Virus record (IMG/VR): IMGVR_UViG_3300022928_000113
Location: 1 to 24,239 of that record
Direction: 5' to 3' (one strand)
DNA length: 24,239 bases
Source of the DNA: a virus
This document shows positions 7,570-14,424 of this stretch, in pieces. A model generated the notes under the pieces. The model was not told the origin of the DNA and did no database searches. It saw only the letters and a list, made by a program, of their open reading frames with translations. Position numbers and translations under genes: made by a program. Every line of letters begins with the position of its first letter. Within the stretch, counting starts at the first letter, position 1.

Positions 7570-7806
7570 TCAGTATTTATCTCTCAATTTATATTCCGAG
7601 ACAACTTCATATTGTCGCGCCCATAGTTGATCACGGAAGATAACCCCTCTGTCCTGCAAGAGTTGCATCATTTTATAAACCGAATTTTGCGTGGTTTTTA
7701 TGCCACGCGCTATTTCGTTCTGACTCGGATTTTTGCCGTTCTCGAGCGCAAATCGTTTTACAAATTCCAGCAAATCGTGCTGGCGCGGTGTGACATCATG
7801 CAGCAT
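7570..7806 (-). CDS. LexA-type winged-helix DNA-binding protein (no protease domain)
   Basis: The product has 78 residues. It matches the N-terminal DNA-binding domain of LexA: VTPRQHDLLEFVKRFALENG, then NPSQNEIARGI (first HTH helices), then NSVYKMMQLLQDRGVI (recognition helix), and a basic wing. The Ser/Lys autoprotease half of LexA is absent. It may be a phage repressor or Cro-like regulator that cannot be cleaved by RecA. Its ATG lies 11 bases inside the end of the exonuclease gene, with an AGAGG ribosome site. It is the last gene of the leftward operon, before the terminator. Confidence 0.8.
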   Translation of the reverse strand: MLHDVTPRQHDLLEFVKRFALENGKNPSQNEIARGIKTTQNSVYKMMQLLQDRGVIFRDQLWARQYEVVSEYKLRDKY

Positions 7807-9024: not shown

Positions 9025-9276
9025 TTATCGGATTGTTTTATAATGTTTGAGCGTTCGTACCCCTTCTCGGAGCTTGATCGCTGTACTTTGCACTTCCCAT
9101 TGCGCTGCCCTTACGCGCTCGCTGACTCTCCCGTTATGGTTATGAATCAAATCTAATTTGTCTGCCAATGCGCGCAGCTCAGTCGCTGCCGTCGCAATGT
9201 GCTCATCAGAAGCCAGCGGTACGCTAATGCGCACGCTTTTGCCCGGATATTGAAATTCAGTCGTTGCTCTTGGCAT
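9025..9276 (-). CDS. Small phage protein, unknown (83 residues)
   Basis: I chose the ATG at 9276 because AAGGA sits five bases upstream. An ATG at 9282 and longer in-frame starts to 9318 exist but run deeper into the recombinase-like gene. The product begins MPRATTEF, with a short beta segment (KSVRISVPL) and then long helices (ATAATELRALADKLDLI, RVRAAQWEVQSTAIKL). It is basic overall. It overlaps the end of the recombinase-like gene by 20 bases. No family was recognised; it could be a small nucleic-acid-binding protein. Confidence 0.55.
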   Translation of the reverse strand: MPRATTEFQYPGKSVRISVPLASDEHIATAATELRALADKLDLIHNHNGRVSERVRAAQWEVQSTAIKLREGVRTLKHYKTIR

Positions 9277-10171
9277 ACTCATCCTTTGCTTTTGCAATCT
9301 GCCCATACGGCAAGCCAAATTTGCGCGAAATCATAGAAATTCCCATTTCGGGATGCGCTGCAACTATATCTTGTGCTGTTTTTATCCCATCTTGAGAGAT
9401 CAAGTCAACTACATCTTCGGATATAATCTCAGACTGCGCCAATTCGTTTCTAACACTCAAGCGCGGTTTGATGCCGCAATTGTCCATTATGTTGCGCGCC
9501 ATGCTGGCGGTCCACAGCGTGCGCCCTCGAGGACTGACAATCCTTTTCGCCGTTAAACTTTTGGCGAAATCGCCGGAGCTGCGACAGCCACGGTCATAAA
9601 GCCCCTGCATCACCGGCAAAATTTCAACAATATAATCTTGTTTTTGCGCAGCCCTTGCCTTTGTTGCTTCTGCCGCTGCCAATTTGGTCGTTTTGATATT
9701 CCCGAGCGTAGTAATTACCTTGCCTTTTTTGGTGATGTGTTTGCCTGTGCGCTTAATTTCGCTCTGGATCTTGTCATACGCCTTTTGAGCGCGCGCCTTG
9801 GTTTCAGTCACTTCAAACTCCGCAACGCTGGCCATCACCTTCAGCACCTCGCGCGTCTTGCCCGGTTCGTTCAAGCTGGCTACATCCGGCGTGCAGACCT
9901 CGATCCCGTGTTTTATCATCTTGCCAATCACGTCGGCATTTCGGCTCATTTGACCAAATGTCGGAATGAGCAAAATTGCTTTGGCCAGTTGTGCCAATCG
10001 CAGCGCGCGCTCGAGTTCCGGGCGCTTGCTTCTTTTGCGCCCTTTTTCGCTTTCTATAACCTGTCCCGCTATTTTGTATCCCCGCGTTTCACACCATTCA
10101 GCCGCCAATTCTTGCTGATATTGCAAGCCCTTGCCGCCTGTCCGATCGCGGTAATATACGATCGCCTTCAC
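9257..10171 (-). CDS. Serine-recombinase-like protein with degraded active site
   Basis: The product has 304 residues, from a GTG start with an AGGGGG ribosome site. The fold signature of the resolvase/invertase N-terminal domain is clear: KAIVYYRDRTGGKG, RPELERALRLA, MSRNADVIGKMI, and the long helix ASVAEFEVTETKARAQKAYD. However, the catalytic Ser10 of YYRVS is Arg here (YYRDR). The DR of the LDRLxR motif is GQ (TFGQMSR, residues 73-74), leaving only the last Arg (Arg77). Strand cleavage is therefore not expected. The C-terminal half is basic with HTH-like stretches (GISMISRKFGLPYGQIAKAK). As the first gene of the leftward operon it may serve as a DNA-binding regulator. Alternatively it is a decaying integrase. 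The fold is confident; the role is inferred. Confidence 0.8.
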   Translation of the reverse strand: MKAIVYYRDRTGGKGLQYQQELAAEWCETRGYKIAGQVIESEKGRKRSKRPELERALRLAQLAKAILLIPTFGQMSRNADVIGKMIKHGIEVCTPDVASLNEPGKTREVLKVMASVAEFEVTETKARAQKAYDKIQSEIKRTGKHITKKGKVITTLGNIKTTKLAAAEATKARAAQKQDYIVEILPVMQGLYDRGCRSSGDFAKSLTAKRIVSPRGRTLWTASMARNIMDNCGIKPRLSVRNELAQSEIISEDVVDLISQDGIKTAQDIVAAHPEMGISMISRKFGLPYGQIAKAKDEYAKSND

Positions 10172-11367: not shown

Positions 11368-13239
11368 ATGATGAGCGAGCGAGAGCACGATATTTCTGGC
11401 GACGCAATGCTAAAAATATGCCTTGCGTTGTTCGGCGATCCGAGCCAAGTAAACGGCAACGAGTACCGCTGGGGCACCCACGGATCGAAGCGCCTGACGA
11501 TCGATAACGGGCAGTTTTACGATTATGAGCTGGAGAAAGGCGGCAACGCGATCAGCCTACTGCAACTCCACGGCGATGGTCGACCGATTCACGAACAGCT
11601 TGACGAGCATGGGTGTCGATTGCAGCCAGTACCGCCAAGGCCAGAGTCATTTAAGGAAGTAGCGCGCTACTTTTACACCGATGAAGATGGCGTCATCCGC
11701 TATCAGGTTGCACGCGAGGAAAGTGCGCGCGGTAACAAGCGATTCAAGCAGTTTGATGCCGCCGGCAAACCGGGTATTAAAGGCAAAGGCATCGATCCCC
11801 TGCCCTATCGTTTGCATGAAATCGCCTCGAGGCCGGATGAGGCAGTTCACATCCTCGAGGGCGAAAAGTGCTGCGAGGCATTGATCGCAGAGATGGGTGT
11901 GCTGGCTACCACGAACAGCGGCGGCGGCGGTCAGTGGGGCGAAATTCATTCGATGAGATTGCGCGATCGCACTTGCTATGTGTTTGAAGATAACGATGCG
12001 AAAGGTCGAGCGCACGCGCGCAAGGTTATCGAGTCGCTGCGCCCGTTTACCGATAGCATACAGTTGATTCATTTCCGGGAATTTGGCGATAAGTACGACG
12101 CTGCTGACTTCCTAAAGACGCACGATTACGTCGAATTAATGGAACGAGCCGAATATGTCGACGAAAACACTGTCGAAATAGAGCTTGATTTTGAATCTGA
12201 CGAGGATTCGGGCATCCCACTCAGTTATGAGGTGCTCTCAATCGCGGATTTGTACGCTATGCCGCCGGCAAAGTGGTTGATCGATGGCGTCATTGCAGAG
12301 CGCGAGCTGACGGTACTGTATGCGCCGCCGGGCGAAGGCAAGACGTTTTTGGCGTTGGATTTTGCCTTGCACGTCGCTGCCGGGCGCGATTGGAATGATC
12401 GCACCACGACTCCAGGTCGAGTTCTATACATCGCCGGCGAGGGCGTTTCTGGCCTCCCGGCGCGGGTTAAGGCGTGGCACCAGCACAACGGCTACGAGCC
12501 GATAGATAACTTTTACATATTGCCGCAAACCGTTGAAATGATTGACCCTGCGAGTATGTTTCGATTGGGCAATACCATCGCCGAAATGGGCGAATTTGAC
12601 TTAATCGTGATCGATACCGTGGCGCGAGCGCTTGCCGGCGCTGAAGAAAACAGCGCGACGGATATGGGTAAATTTATCGGCGCGTGCGGCAAATTGCAGA
12701 GCGATCACAACGCCAGCGTGTTGGGAATCCATCACTCCGGCAAAGATGTCGGGCGCGGTATGCGCGGCAGCTCGAGTTTGCTTGGCGCGGTCAACACCTC
12801 GATGAGCTGCAAGCGGGTCGATGACAACCAGATCAAGCTGACCTTCGAAAAGCAAAAAGACATCGAGATCGCCGAGCCGATTGCGCTGGATATGGTGCAA
12901 GTACAGGTTGGCGACGGCTTGCTTGGCCAAACTTCGATAGCGCTTGAGCTGGCGACCATCATTGCGGAAGAAAAGCAGAAATTCCAATTGACGACCAACG
13001 AGCGGTTGACGTTGAAAGCGCTGCGCAGTGCCGTCTTTAGAGTCGGCAAAGCGCCGGTGTCTAACCGAGTAAATGGCATGGCTATGGTGGTCAGTCTCGA
13101 TGATTGGCGCGAGGAAGCGCGCAATCTGATGGATACCGGCAAGAAAAGTTGGTACACGGCATTTGCGCGATCGGTAAGTCGATTGGTCGAGCGAGAGGTA
13201 GTTGGCAAGCATAACGATGAGCATTGGGTGCTCGAATGA
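11368..13239 (+). CDS. Bifunctional TOPRIM primase / RecA-fold (RepA-like) replicative helicase
   Basis: The product has 623 residues. The N-terminal part lacks a clear zinc finger. A TOPRIM domain follows: VHILEGEK (Glu164, about 160-167) and YVFEDNDAKG (Asp208, Asp210), the metal-binding residues of primases. The C-terminal half is a hexameric helicase/ATPase of the AAA_25/RepA type: Walker A APPGEGKT (319-326, Lys325), Walker B LIVIDT (Asp416), then GIHHSGKDVGRGMRGSS, the sensor and arginine-finger region of this family. It should unwind and prime phage DNA at the fork. The preceding hairpin may control its translation, and its stop overlaps the next start (ATGA). The TTG frame extension before the next gene is not needed. 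Confidence 0.92.
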   Translation: MMSEREHDISGDAMLKICLALFGDPSQVNGNEYRWGTHGSKRLTIDNGQFYDYELEKGGNAISLLQLHGDGRPIHEQLDEHGCRLQPVPPRPESFKEVARYFYTDEDGVIRYQVAREESARGNKRFKQFDAAGKPGIKGKGIDPLPYRLHEIASRPDEAVHILEGEKCCEALIAEMGVLATTNSGGGGQWGEIHSMRLRDRTCYVFEDNDAKGRAHARKVIESLRPFTDSIQLIHFREFGDKYDAADFLKTHDYVELMERAEYVDENTVEIELDFESDEDSGIPLSYEVLSIADLYAMPPAKWLIDGVIAERELTVLYAPPGEGKTFLALDFALHVAAGRDWNDRTTTPGRVLYIAGEGVSGLPARVKAWHQHNGYEPIDNFYILPQTVEMIDPASMFRLGNTIAEMGEFDLIVIDTVARALAGAEENSATDMGKFIGACGKLQSDHNASVLGIHHSGKDVGRGMRGSSSLLGAVNTSMSCKRVDDNQIKLTFEKQKDIEIAEPIALDMVQVQVGDGLLGQTSIALELATIIAEEKQKFQLTTNERLTLKALRSAVFRVGKAPVSNRVNGMAMVVSLDDWREEARNLMDTGKKSWYTAFARSVSRLVEREVVGKHNDEHWVLE

Positions 13240-13481
13240 ATGAGCACTGGCTGCGGCAGGATTTGTTGATCTATGAGATCGAGCAGCAAGGCAACTCGCT
13301 CAAAGAGGCGCATATCCGAGGCATTTTGGACCTCAGCGACAAAGAATTTGAGGTGCTCGAGCAAGCGCGCGATTTGATGGAGGCACTGGCCGAGCAAATG
13401 GCCGAGGATTTGGCGTTCGCGGAAGAGGTCGAACCAGATCCGGTGCTTTGGTTTAAACAGCATTATTCGGACTGGTGGTAA
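13236..13481 (+). CDS. Small acidic protein, unknown (81 residues)
   Basis: The ATG overlaps the stop codon of the primase-helicase gene (ATGA), so translation is coupled. The product MNEHWLRQDLLIYEIEQQG is mainly helical, with the repeat-like acidic helix LMEALAEQMAEDLAFAEEVE and an aromatic end (HYSDWW). A short LSDKEFEVLEQA region could form a helix-turn-helix, but this is weak. No family was recognised. It may be a helicase partner by context. Confidence 0.65.
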   Translation: MNEHWLRQDLLIYEIEQQGNSLKEAHIRGILDLSDKEFEVLEQARDLMEALAEQMAEDLAFAEEVEPDPVLWFKQHYSDWW

Positions 13482-13669
13482 TGGCGAAACTGACAATTGA
13501 ACTACATGAAAGCGACATCGATGAGCTGATCGAAGAGCTGACCAAGCTGCGGGGGCAAGTCACCGAGCTATGGGATGATTCGAGGCGACTGATTTATGAA
13601 ATGGAAGATATGACGGACAAAATGCGCAAGATTGTTGCGCCGTTTGGCGGTGAGCATGACGACATTTAA
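13481..13669 (+). CDS. Small coiled-coil protein next to the iterons (62 residues)
   Basis: The ATG shares a base with the preceding stop (TAATG). An upstream in-frame GTG at 13475 is possible. The product MAKLTIELHESD is followed by an almost continuous heptad helix (IDELIEELTKLRGQVTELWDD, then RLIYEMEDMTDKMRKIV) and an acidic end (GGEHDDI). It probably dimerises through a coiled coil. It is the last gene before the iteron array and may act in origin function, but the sequence itself does not show this. Confidence 0.65.
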   Translation: MAKLTIELHESDIDELIEELTKLRGQVTELWDDSRRLIYEMEDMTDKMRKIVAPFGGEHDDI

Positions 13670-13690
13670 CTGTATATCCATACAGACATA

Positions 13691-13920
13691 GTCATCACTA
13701 AGGGGTGATGACTCGAGGATATAGTCATCACCCCAAATGATGACTCAGTCATCAGAGTCATCACCCGAGTCATCAAAGTGATGACTCACGCAAGTAATTG
13801 ATATTAATAAAAAAAGAGGAAATAGTCATCATCGAGTCATCACCTACACGGTCAACAAATCATGAGTCATCACCTTACCCACCACCCTATAGGGTGGGGG
13901 TAATGATGACTACTGATGAC
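13691..13920. repeat. Iteron array, candidate phage replication origin
   Basis: Thirteen copies of the octamer AGTCATCA or its complement TGATGACT lie in 230 bases of non-coding DNA. Using the GTCATCA core, plus-orientation copies start at 13691, 13724, 13748, 13757, 13769, 13825, 13836 and 13866. Minus-orientation copies (TGATGAC) start at 13706, 13738, 13779, 13904 and 13914. The wider consensus is (G/T)AGTCATCACC. An AT-rich stretch (about 13791-13824) splits the array, like a DNA-unwinding element. The array lies just after the primase-helicase cluster. A regulator-binding array is the main alternative. Confidence 0.85.
13875..13903. repeat. Inverted repeat inside the iteron region
   Basis: TTACCC and CCACCCTA pair with TAGGGTGG and GGGTAA, perfect except for one bulged A at 13881. 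The core CCACCCTATAGGGTGG (13882-13897) is an exact 16-base palindrome. It sits between the last plus-orientation iteron and the two final inverted ones, so it may be a further protein-binding or strand-initiation site of the origin. Confidence 0.7.
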
Positions 13921-13932
13921 TGGGGTTAAACA

Positions 13933-14424
13933 ATGCAAAAAAATATCGAACTAGAAAGCATCACAAGTGGAATTGACGCGTTGCGCGAAGCAACGGATCG
14001 GAAGTGGGGAAAAGATTATCTGCGCCTCAAGGTCAGCCCAGAGACGCGCTTCAAATGGGATGCTCAGGTCGAGCGTTATGAAAAGGCGGTCAAGGCGAAT
14101 CATTTGCCATCTGTGCGAGTTCACGCGAAATCTATTACTGCCGGATTTGATGCGCTCGAGCGGGAAGCTGAGAGGCTAGGCTTCAGCCCTACCCCGCCGA
14201 CAATCTGGACGGCCAAGGCTGGGCCTCGTCATACCCCGATTCATATTGTGAAAGAGAAAGAGCACGTTGATCTGGCTGAGAATGAGGGTGTAGTCACGTT
14301 CACCCTTGATGAGCTAGTAAAAATGATCCCGGTGAACATTATCGCCATAAAGGCGCAGTTTACCGGCACACGAATAACCAATTGGGAAGAGGTGGATTTT
14401 AAAGATGACGATATCCCGTTCTGA
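13933..14424 (+). CDS. Unknown protein with an SSB-like C-terminal tail (DDDIPF)
   Basis: The product has 163 residues, from an ATG eight bases after GGGG. The last residues are EVDFKDDDIPF, which reproduces the acidic tail by which bacterial SSB recruits PriA, RecQ, RecO, ExoI and others. The body does not look like a typical OB-fold SSB: it is largely helical with two similar segments, SITSGIDAL (residues 9-17) and SITAGFDAL (67-75), then a beta-rich part (GVVTFTLDEL, NIIAIKAQFTGTRI). It could be a divergent phage SSB or a protein that imitates the SSB tail. It starts directly after the iterons and overlaps the next gene by 20 bases. Confidence 0.7.
   Translation: MQKNIELESITSGIDALREATDRKWGKDYLRLKVSPETRFKWDAQVERYEKAVKANHLPSVRVHAKSITAGFDALEREAERLGFSPTPPTIWTAKAGPRHTPIHIVKEKEHVDLAENEGVVTFTLDELVKMIPVNIIAIKAQFTGTRITNWEEVDFKDDDIPF

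Follow-up and report, generated by a model that had tools for sequence, protein, structure and literature searches.

An octamer array beside a phage primase-helicase gene is a probable replication origin whose repeat word follows the helicase C-terminal domain

Results

The window, the whole 24,239-base stretch of viral DNA analysed here, contains 13 exact copies of the octamer AGTCATCA at positions 13690–13921, 3' of a primase-helicase gene and immediately 5' of a gene for a protein ending in DDDIPF. Eight copies are on the plus strand (starting at 13690, 13723, 13747, 13756, 13768, 13824, 13835 and 13865) and five on the minus strand (13706, 13738, 13779, 13904 and 13914), with start-to-start spacings, in order, of 16, 17, 15, 9, 9, 12, 11, 45, 11, 30, 39 and 10 bases and an extended repeat consensus of GAGTCATCACC. 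The word occurs nowhere else in the window, for which 0.65 copies would be expected by chance, and 13 copies were never attained by any shuffle. The exact count bears out the initial annotation of this DNA, which had reported 13 octamers, eight one way and five the other, and had judged them not to be chance; its coordinates (13691–13920) were about one base off, and its spacing of 9–56 bases is corrected to 9–45 from start to start. No open reading frame of at least 60 aa covers the array, which had likewise been described as having no gene of its own.

An AT-rich block (GTAATTGATATTAATAAAAAAAGAGGAAATA, 13793–13823), by its sequence a putative DNA-unwinding element, divides the array in two. 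Towards its end, inverted repeat copies around a 16-base exact palindrome (CCACCCTATAGGGTGG, 13882–13897) make up a long imperfect hairpin (13865–13911; DNA fold z = −4.3), a candidate single-strand initiation (priming) site. Both the block, at about 13793–13823, and the palindrome had been noticed initially and were found in place. The hairpin was not called a terminator because it has no U-run, and a sub-threshold Rfam match to whalefall-1 inside the array was taken as chance. A cumulative GC-skew minimum, initially suggested as a sign to look for at this locus, was found at the array neither in the window nor in the complete phage CRP-823; the skew is uninformative because it follows gene strand.

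A nucleotide search of the array region among phages gave no match. Scanning for three spaced AGTCATCA copies returned 94 stretches which, the relatives of the window aside, were mostly one-strand runs, taken for chance or coding repeats. No description of the repeat word was found in the open-access literature, to which the paper search was limited and absence from which is no proof of novelty.

Upstream of the array, the gene order is a PDDEXK/Holliday-junction-type nuclease, a probable SSB, the primase-helicase and two small genes. The probable phage SSB (10770–11297, plus strand), which has an acidic tail, is named from its position, equal to that of a roseophage gene annotated as a ssDNA-binding protein; the roseophage protein matches phrog_112, and the window protein has no family match. 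Its gene is only 78% identical to the counterparts in three contigs (L009, L013 and L017) that are otherwise ~98–99% identical to the window, a pattern that suggests recombination within the gene. The two small proteins, of 81 aa (13236–13481, plus strand) and 62 aa (13481–13669, plus strand, directly before the array), are confined to the window's own phage group. Two lineages have a cytosine-5 DNA methyltransferase-like gene (SGYAGIERG...PCQPFS) between them (8412–9440 in L010/L019, 1075–1960 in L015), which widens the distance from primase to array; the array is still present.

Beyond the array lies its conserved neighbour, the 163-aa DRKWG protein (13933–14424, plus strand), with an SSB-like acidic C-terminal tip, DDDIPF. 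This sequence is the tip of bacterial SSB, and the DRKWG protein may use it to recruit host or phage partners. The family had no match in Pfam, PHROG or PADLOC, a search in phages with the window sequence as query gave none either, and the structure model is helical and not DNA-binding-like, with no convincing match in a fold search. Terminase genes follow a few kb downstream of the array. On the minus strand, a serine recombinase (9257–10171) and a small LexA/repressor-like HTH protein (7570–7806) may point to a phage that is, or once was, temperate.

The primase-helicase (11368–13239, plus strand, 623 aa) combines a weak Toprim-like N-terminal part (Toprim_3, 14.5 bits, below cut-off), a RepA-family helicase (AAA_25, Pfam E 3.9e-41; domain at aa 298–460, 12259–12747) and a predicted C-terminal winged helix. 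Among solved structures, RSF1010 RepA alone is a sequence relative (1g8y, E 6.9e-7). AlphaFold2 modelled the last 119 residues as H-b-H-H-b-b, with pLDDT of ~70–95 per 10-residue block over model residues 39–117, and a Foldseek search with this model returned winged-helix domains (CRP, MORF WH, cullin WHB), all weak, the best E being 0.03. The segment at aa ~543–621 (12994–13230) is predicted on these grounds to be a winged helix, with its recognition helix predicted at aa 594–608 (nt 13147–13191).

Homologues of the primase and DRKWG proteins, at 61–99% protein identity, were found in about ten IMG/VR contigs, and the array is present in every window-group contig that covers the interval. All relatives that share the primase have a repeat cluster at this locus; the comparison proposed in the initial annotation thus turned out in favour of its reading. 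L015 and L077/L094 have the word AGTCATCA with their own spacing, and L010, L011 and L012 have the window layout but mostly the word ATTCATCA. The AT-rich GATATTAAT block and the hairpin palindrome are retained in L012, L015, L019 and L020, and hairpins comparable to that of the window (z −3.7 to −4.4) occupy the equivalent place in four other lineages.

In distant lineages the module runs exonuclease, SSB, AAA_25 primase-helicase, intergenic array and DRKWG; the DRKWG homologues beside the arrays are recognisable at ~20–32% identity to the window protein, and most lineages keep the SSB-like tip as DD(x)IPF/W. A repeat array above all 100 shuffles was found at 61 of 72 distinct loci. The words differ by lineage (AGTCATCA, ATTCATCA, GGTGAGGA, GGTGTGGA, AACTGTGGA, AC(C/T)ACAAAC, ACTACAAA, TGTATAAA, TGTAGGAA and GGCTGGAA, with the spellings ACCACAAAC/ACTACAAAC and TGTAGGAA/ATCATACA among distant DRKWG lineages), giving at least nine dialects besides that of the window. 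Of the loci where no array was detected, L170 and L171 have another ORF within the 450 bp before DRKWG; in L172, not detected at first, GGTGGGGA copies appeared once the ORF start was corrected by eye. The C-terminal codons of the primase-helicase end 140–220 bp from the array in most lineages, the window having its two small genes between, and at L126, L179, L194 and L216 a gene is inserted there. Some GGTGAGGA phages (L126, L127/L128) have an HNH endonuclease-like gene in this position.

The module is also carried by the cultured roseophages CRP-811, CRP-821, CRP-823 and CRP-831. The complete CRP-823 genome contains ten copies of ACTACAAA, all inside the array. Roseophage record PV211008 (L228) has a GGCTGGAA array directly after the helicase gene and no recognisable DRKWG homologue, making DRKWG dispensable for the presence of an array. 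Other AAA_25 phages (Vibrio, Caulobacter, Microcystis) had no repeat cluster near the helicase gene, and a Manatee Spring AAA_25 phage had only a weak cluster inside that gene; arrays are thus not universal for AAA_25 helicases. Genome contigs scanned for the primase and DRKWG yielded no confirmed relatives.

The repeat word was set against protein identity in a sliding comparison of 37 loci with three words (GGTGAGGA, GGTGTGGA and ACTGTGGA), in which same-word and different-word pairs were compared in 40-column windows. Along the primase-helicase the AUC was 0.52–0.78, followed by 0.85–0.96 over the last ~100 columns; the step is sharp at the domain border, and tracking is lost within ~40 residues of the C-terminal part. 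DRKWG windows gave 0.60–0.70 except for the first, an exception attributed to ORFs whose called extensions reach back into the array. In a non-redundant set (n = 22) the AUC was 0.953 for the C-terminal part (maximum of 1000 permutations ≤0.774), 0.586 for the helicase, 0.548 for the N-terminal part and 0.606 for DRKWG. For 33 phages with three words, the tree of the C-terminal part requires two word changes, the minimum possible, that of the helicase body six and that of DRKWG seven. By these sequence comparisons the repeat word goes with a single protein segment, the C-terminal ~100 residues of the primase-helicase, which supplies a candidate where the initial annotation had seen no obvious initiator gene. 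Within the window's own group, the C-terminal part is not sharply set apart by word between AGTCATCA and ATTCATCA lineages; only position 597 fits, with T in the former and A in the latter.

The initial annotation had named the DDDIPF protein or one of the small proteins flanking the array as the possible binder. An initiator role for DRKWG would suit a gene that in most lineages lies next to the array and can be recognised at 20–30% identity, but the protein fails to follow the word (AUC 0.61; seven changes on its tree), its structure model neither resembles a DNA-binding protein nor matches a known fold well, and the PV211008 array exists without it. The two small proteins are limited to the window's group, and arrays persist in lineages that lack both. 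It is very unlikely that any of these proteins is the initiator.

Because the array lies close to the C-terminal codons, linkage inflates their association, and word and codons might match only as neighbours exchanged together, with the true reader elsewhere. Against this, tracking is limited to the C-terminal part and ends at a sharp step, the equally close DRKWG gene on the opposite side does not track, the match holds across insertions of ~0.8 kb between codons and array, and two genes intervene in the window's group. Linkage is therefore not the whole story; the worry is reduced, not removed, and coincidental co-inheritance is unlikely.

Natural swaps separate the segments further. In three pairs of phages with different words (L198/L183, L210/L193 and L213/L215), the primase-helicase body and DRKWG are mostly 80–100% identical by window and the C-terminal parts only ~47–70%, each swapped C-terminal part being 85–100% identical to those of other phages having its word. 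Between CRP-823 and CRP-831, the SSB, exonuclease, PDDEXK nuclease, wHTH regulator (CRP823_10, 99%) and both terminase subunits (small 100%, large 99.6%) are 98.5–100% identical, and DRKWG is 93% identical. Their primase-helicases are 97–100% identical in the centre and 60–75% in the C-terminal part; the N-terminal part shows 68–85% identity irrespective of word. Ten array copies at matched positions and orientation all read CTACAAA in one phage and GTATAAA in the other, and the palindrome AAACCCTTTAGGGTTT is unchanged. A switch of reader would require just such a concerted change at all ten sites. Since the two phages are also unlike in an HTH gene and a few small genes, the pair by itself does not prove the reader; most of the weight lies on the larger set.

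The same pair bears on what else the array could be. A role in packaging (cos/pac) or partition, with the small terminase or a ParB-like protein as binder, would fit the terminase genes a few kb downstream in the window; yet all array copies differ between CRP-823 and CRP-831 while the terminase subunits are identical or nearly so, and no partition genes were seen. The small terminase was rejected as repeat binder on this count, and a packaging or partition role is extremely unlikely. As an operator or attenuator for the DRKWG operon, bound by the helicase C-terminal part or a separate repressor, the array would suit its place between two co-directional transcription blocks and the weak promoter-like match that it contains, and CRP-823 and CRP-831 do differ in an HTH gene. 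However, 13 copies around an AT block, together with a hairpin, are more than an operator usually has; in many phages the word follows the helicase domain; an array is present even where DRKWG is missing; and the wHTH regulator CRP823_10 is 99% identical despite the differing words. We consider the operator reading unlikely.

Discussion

The sequence comparisons are best explained by the array being a phage replication origin, probably read by the upstream primase-helicase, the proposed initiator, through its C-terminal winged helix, with reader and array exchanged as a cassette. We infer the following steps. Helicase subunits would dock through their winged helices on octamers on either side of the AT block; the many copies in both orientations would gather RepA-type helicase rings, which would load as the block opens; and the end hairpin, exposed on opening of the duplex, could become a priming site for the fused primase, as do the ssi hairpins of RSF1010. 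The reader domain and the array would evolve and swap as one cassette, by which related phages come to use different, probably mutually incompatible words. The initial proposal of an origin of a new iteron type stands in part: an iteron origin is the best-supported reading and 'new iteron type' fits the word, but the class, octamers in both orientations that a helicase reads with its own winged helix, has precedents in P4 alpha and SaPI Rep.

Phage P4 has octamers in both orientations and a C-terminal reader; its alpha helicase is of the SF3 type, and it has separate ori1 and crr. The window octamers likewise lie in both orientations, but the helicase is of the RSF1010-RepA type, with AAA_25 the only Pfam assignment, and not SF3 (D5-like). 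There is a single cluster in the window (which may be a fragment) and in the complete CRP-823, and the present system has many dialects with swapped readers. P4 alpha unites primase, helicase and winged-helix domain in one polypeptide that binds origin repeats, unwinds and primes (PMC4234260), and the window protein similarly joins an AAA_25 helicase, a weak Toprim match below cut-off and a predicted winged helix.

SaPI Rep and SCCmec Cch2 are self-loading helicases that use their C-terminal domain to recognise iterons lying just downstream of their own gene (PMC7581432). Here too the iterons lie downstream of the helicase gene, mostly by 140–220 bp and in the window after two small genes, and the helicase C-terminal domain, which the word tracks statistically, may bind them similarly. 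Unlike those proteins (DUF927, D5/Primase_Cterm helicases), the window helicase is AAA_25, and it occurs in tailed phages, not staphylococcal islands, in which the primase is separate or of the AEP type.

In RSF1010, RepC reads the iterons, RepA unwinds and RepB' primes, and oriV combines iterons with stem-loops for priming (PMC4234260). The window helicase is homologous to RepA (1g8y, E 6.9e-7), and the locus resembles oriV in form, with iterons plus a conserved hairpin that may be used for priming; in contrast to the three RSF1010 proteins, reader, helicase and primase would be fused. Pfam and PHROG annotation of the module genes gave no RepC-like iteron binder or separate RepB' primase.

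The PLE satellites of Vibrio cholerae offer a parallel for the swaps: there the part of RepA that binds DNA varies together with the origin and has repeatedly been exchanged, the two must be cognate, and the origin-directed nuclease Odn acts as a selective force (PMC8263062). In the present system the proposed reader domain and the origin are likewise swapped together, but PLE uses a RepA_N initiator and ~30-bp semi-palindromic iterons, as opposed to a helicase-fused reader with octamers, and no tested replication-module protein had a RepA_N match in Pfam. In the pRN1 and BIP-1 replicons the primase-helicase ends in a winged helix, and a stem-loop follows its gene (PMC4234260); unlike these (SF3 helicase, AEP primase, no iterons), the window has an AAA_25 helicase and iterons. 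The system would work like P4 alpha, RSF1010, SaPI Rep/Cch2 and PLE but belongs to none of them, differing in helicase family, fusion and number of dialects.

If correct, this assigns a replication origin and an initiator to an environmental phage group that includes cultured roseophages, whose describing paper names neither and does not mention the repeats (PMC12629253). It also offers an unusually large natural collection of readers matched to their sites, in which some pairs are only one base and a few residues apart and from which winged-helix DNA recognition could be decoded. A broader reading, which we put forward as a tentative possibility, is a widespread replication-specificity system of tailed phages: a swappable winged-helix reader with an octamer origin, at least ten mutually orthogonal dialects and repeated swaps between near-identical phages. 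The origin dialect would then assign each phage to a replication 'compatibility group', its protein-DNA code would be readable, and swaps may evade origin-directed antagonists or replication interference by co-infecting relatives. Mutually orthogonal words would explain phage compatibility and provide orthogonal origins for laboratory use.

Some individual records deserve mention. In L174 (4986–5564 and upstream), the DRKWG gene is preceded by GGTTACAA repeats, and the upstream protein, of 875 aa, was not recognised by the primase queries; this is perhaps the same origin logic with a different initiator. In L228, the annotated start of CRP406_2 (161–487) falls within the GGCTGGAA array, and the true start is probably further downstream. 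The same record, PV211008, is titled CRP-406 with 29,189 bp, and the table of PMC12629253 lists CRP-406 at 29,144 bp and CRP-701 at 29,189 bp; the two labels may have been exchanged.

DnaA-box-like sequences occur at the left edge of some arrays, namely TTATCCACA in L015 (2277–2290), TTATCCACC/T in the ACCACAAAC group (L140–L153), with L010 also among these loci; the window has only a poor match. Four loci (L164, L165, L177 and L209) have a conserved stretch, CAATGGGTTACAG, between the first two copies and the later ones, and this stretch is common to two otherwise different dialects.
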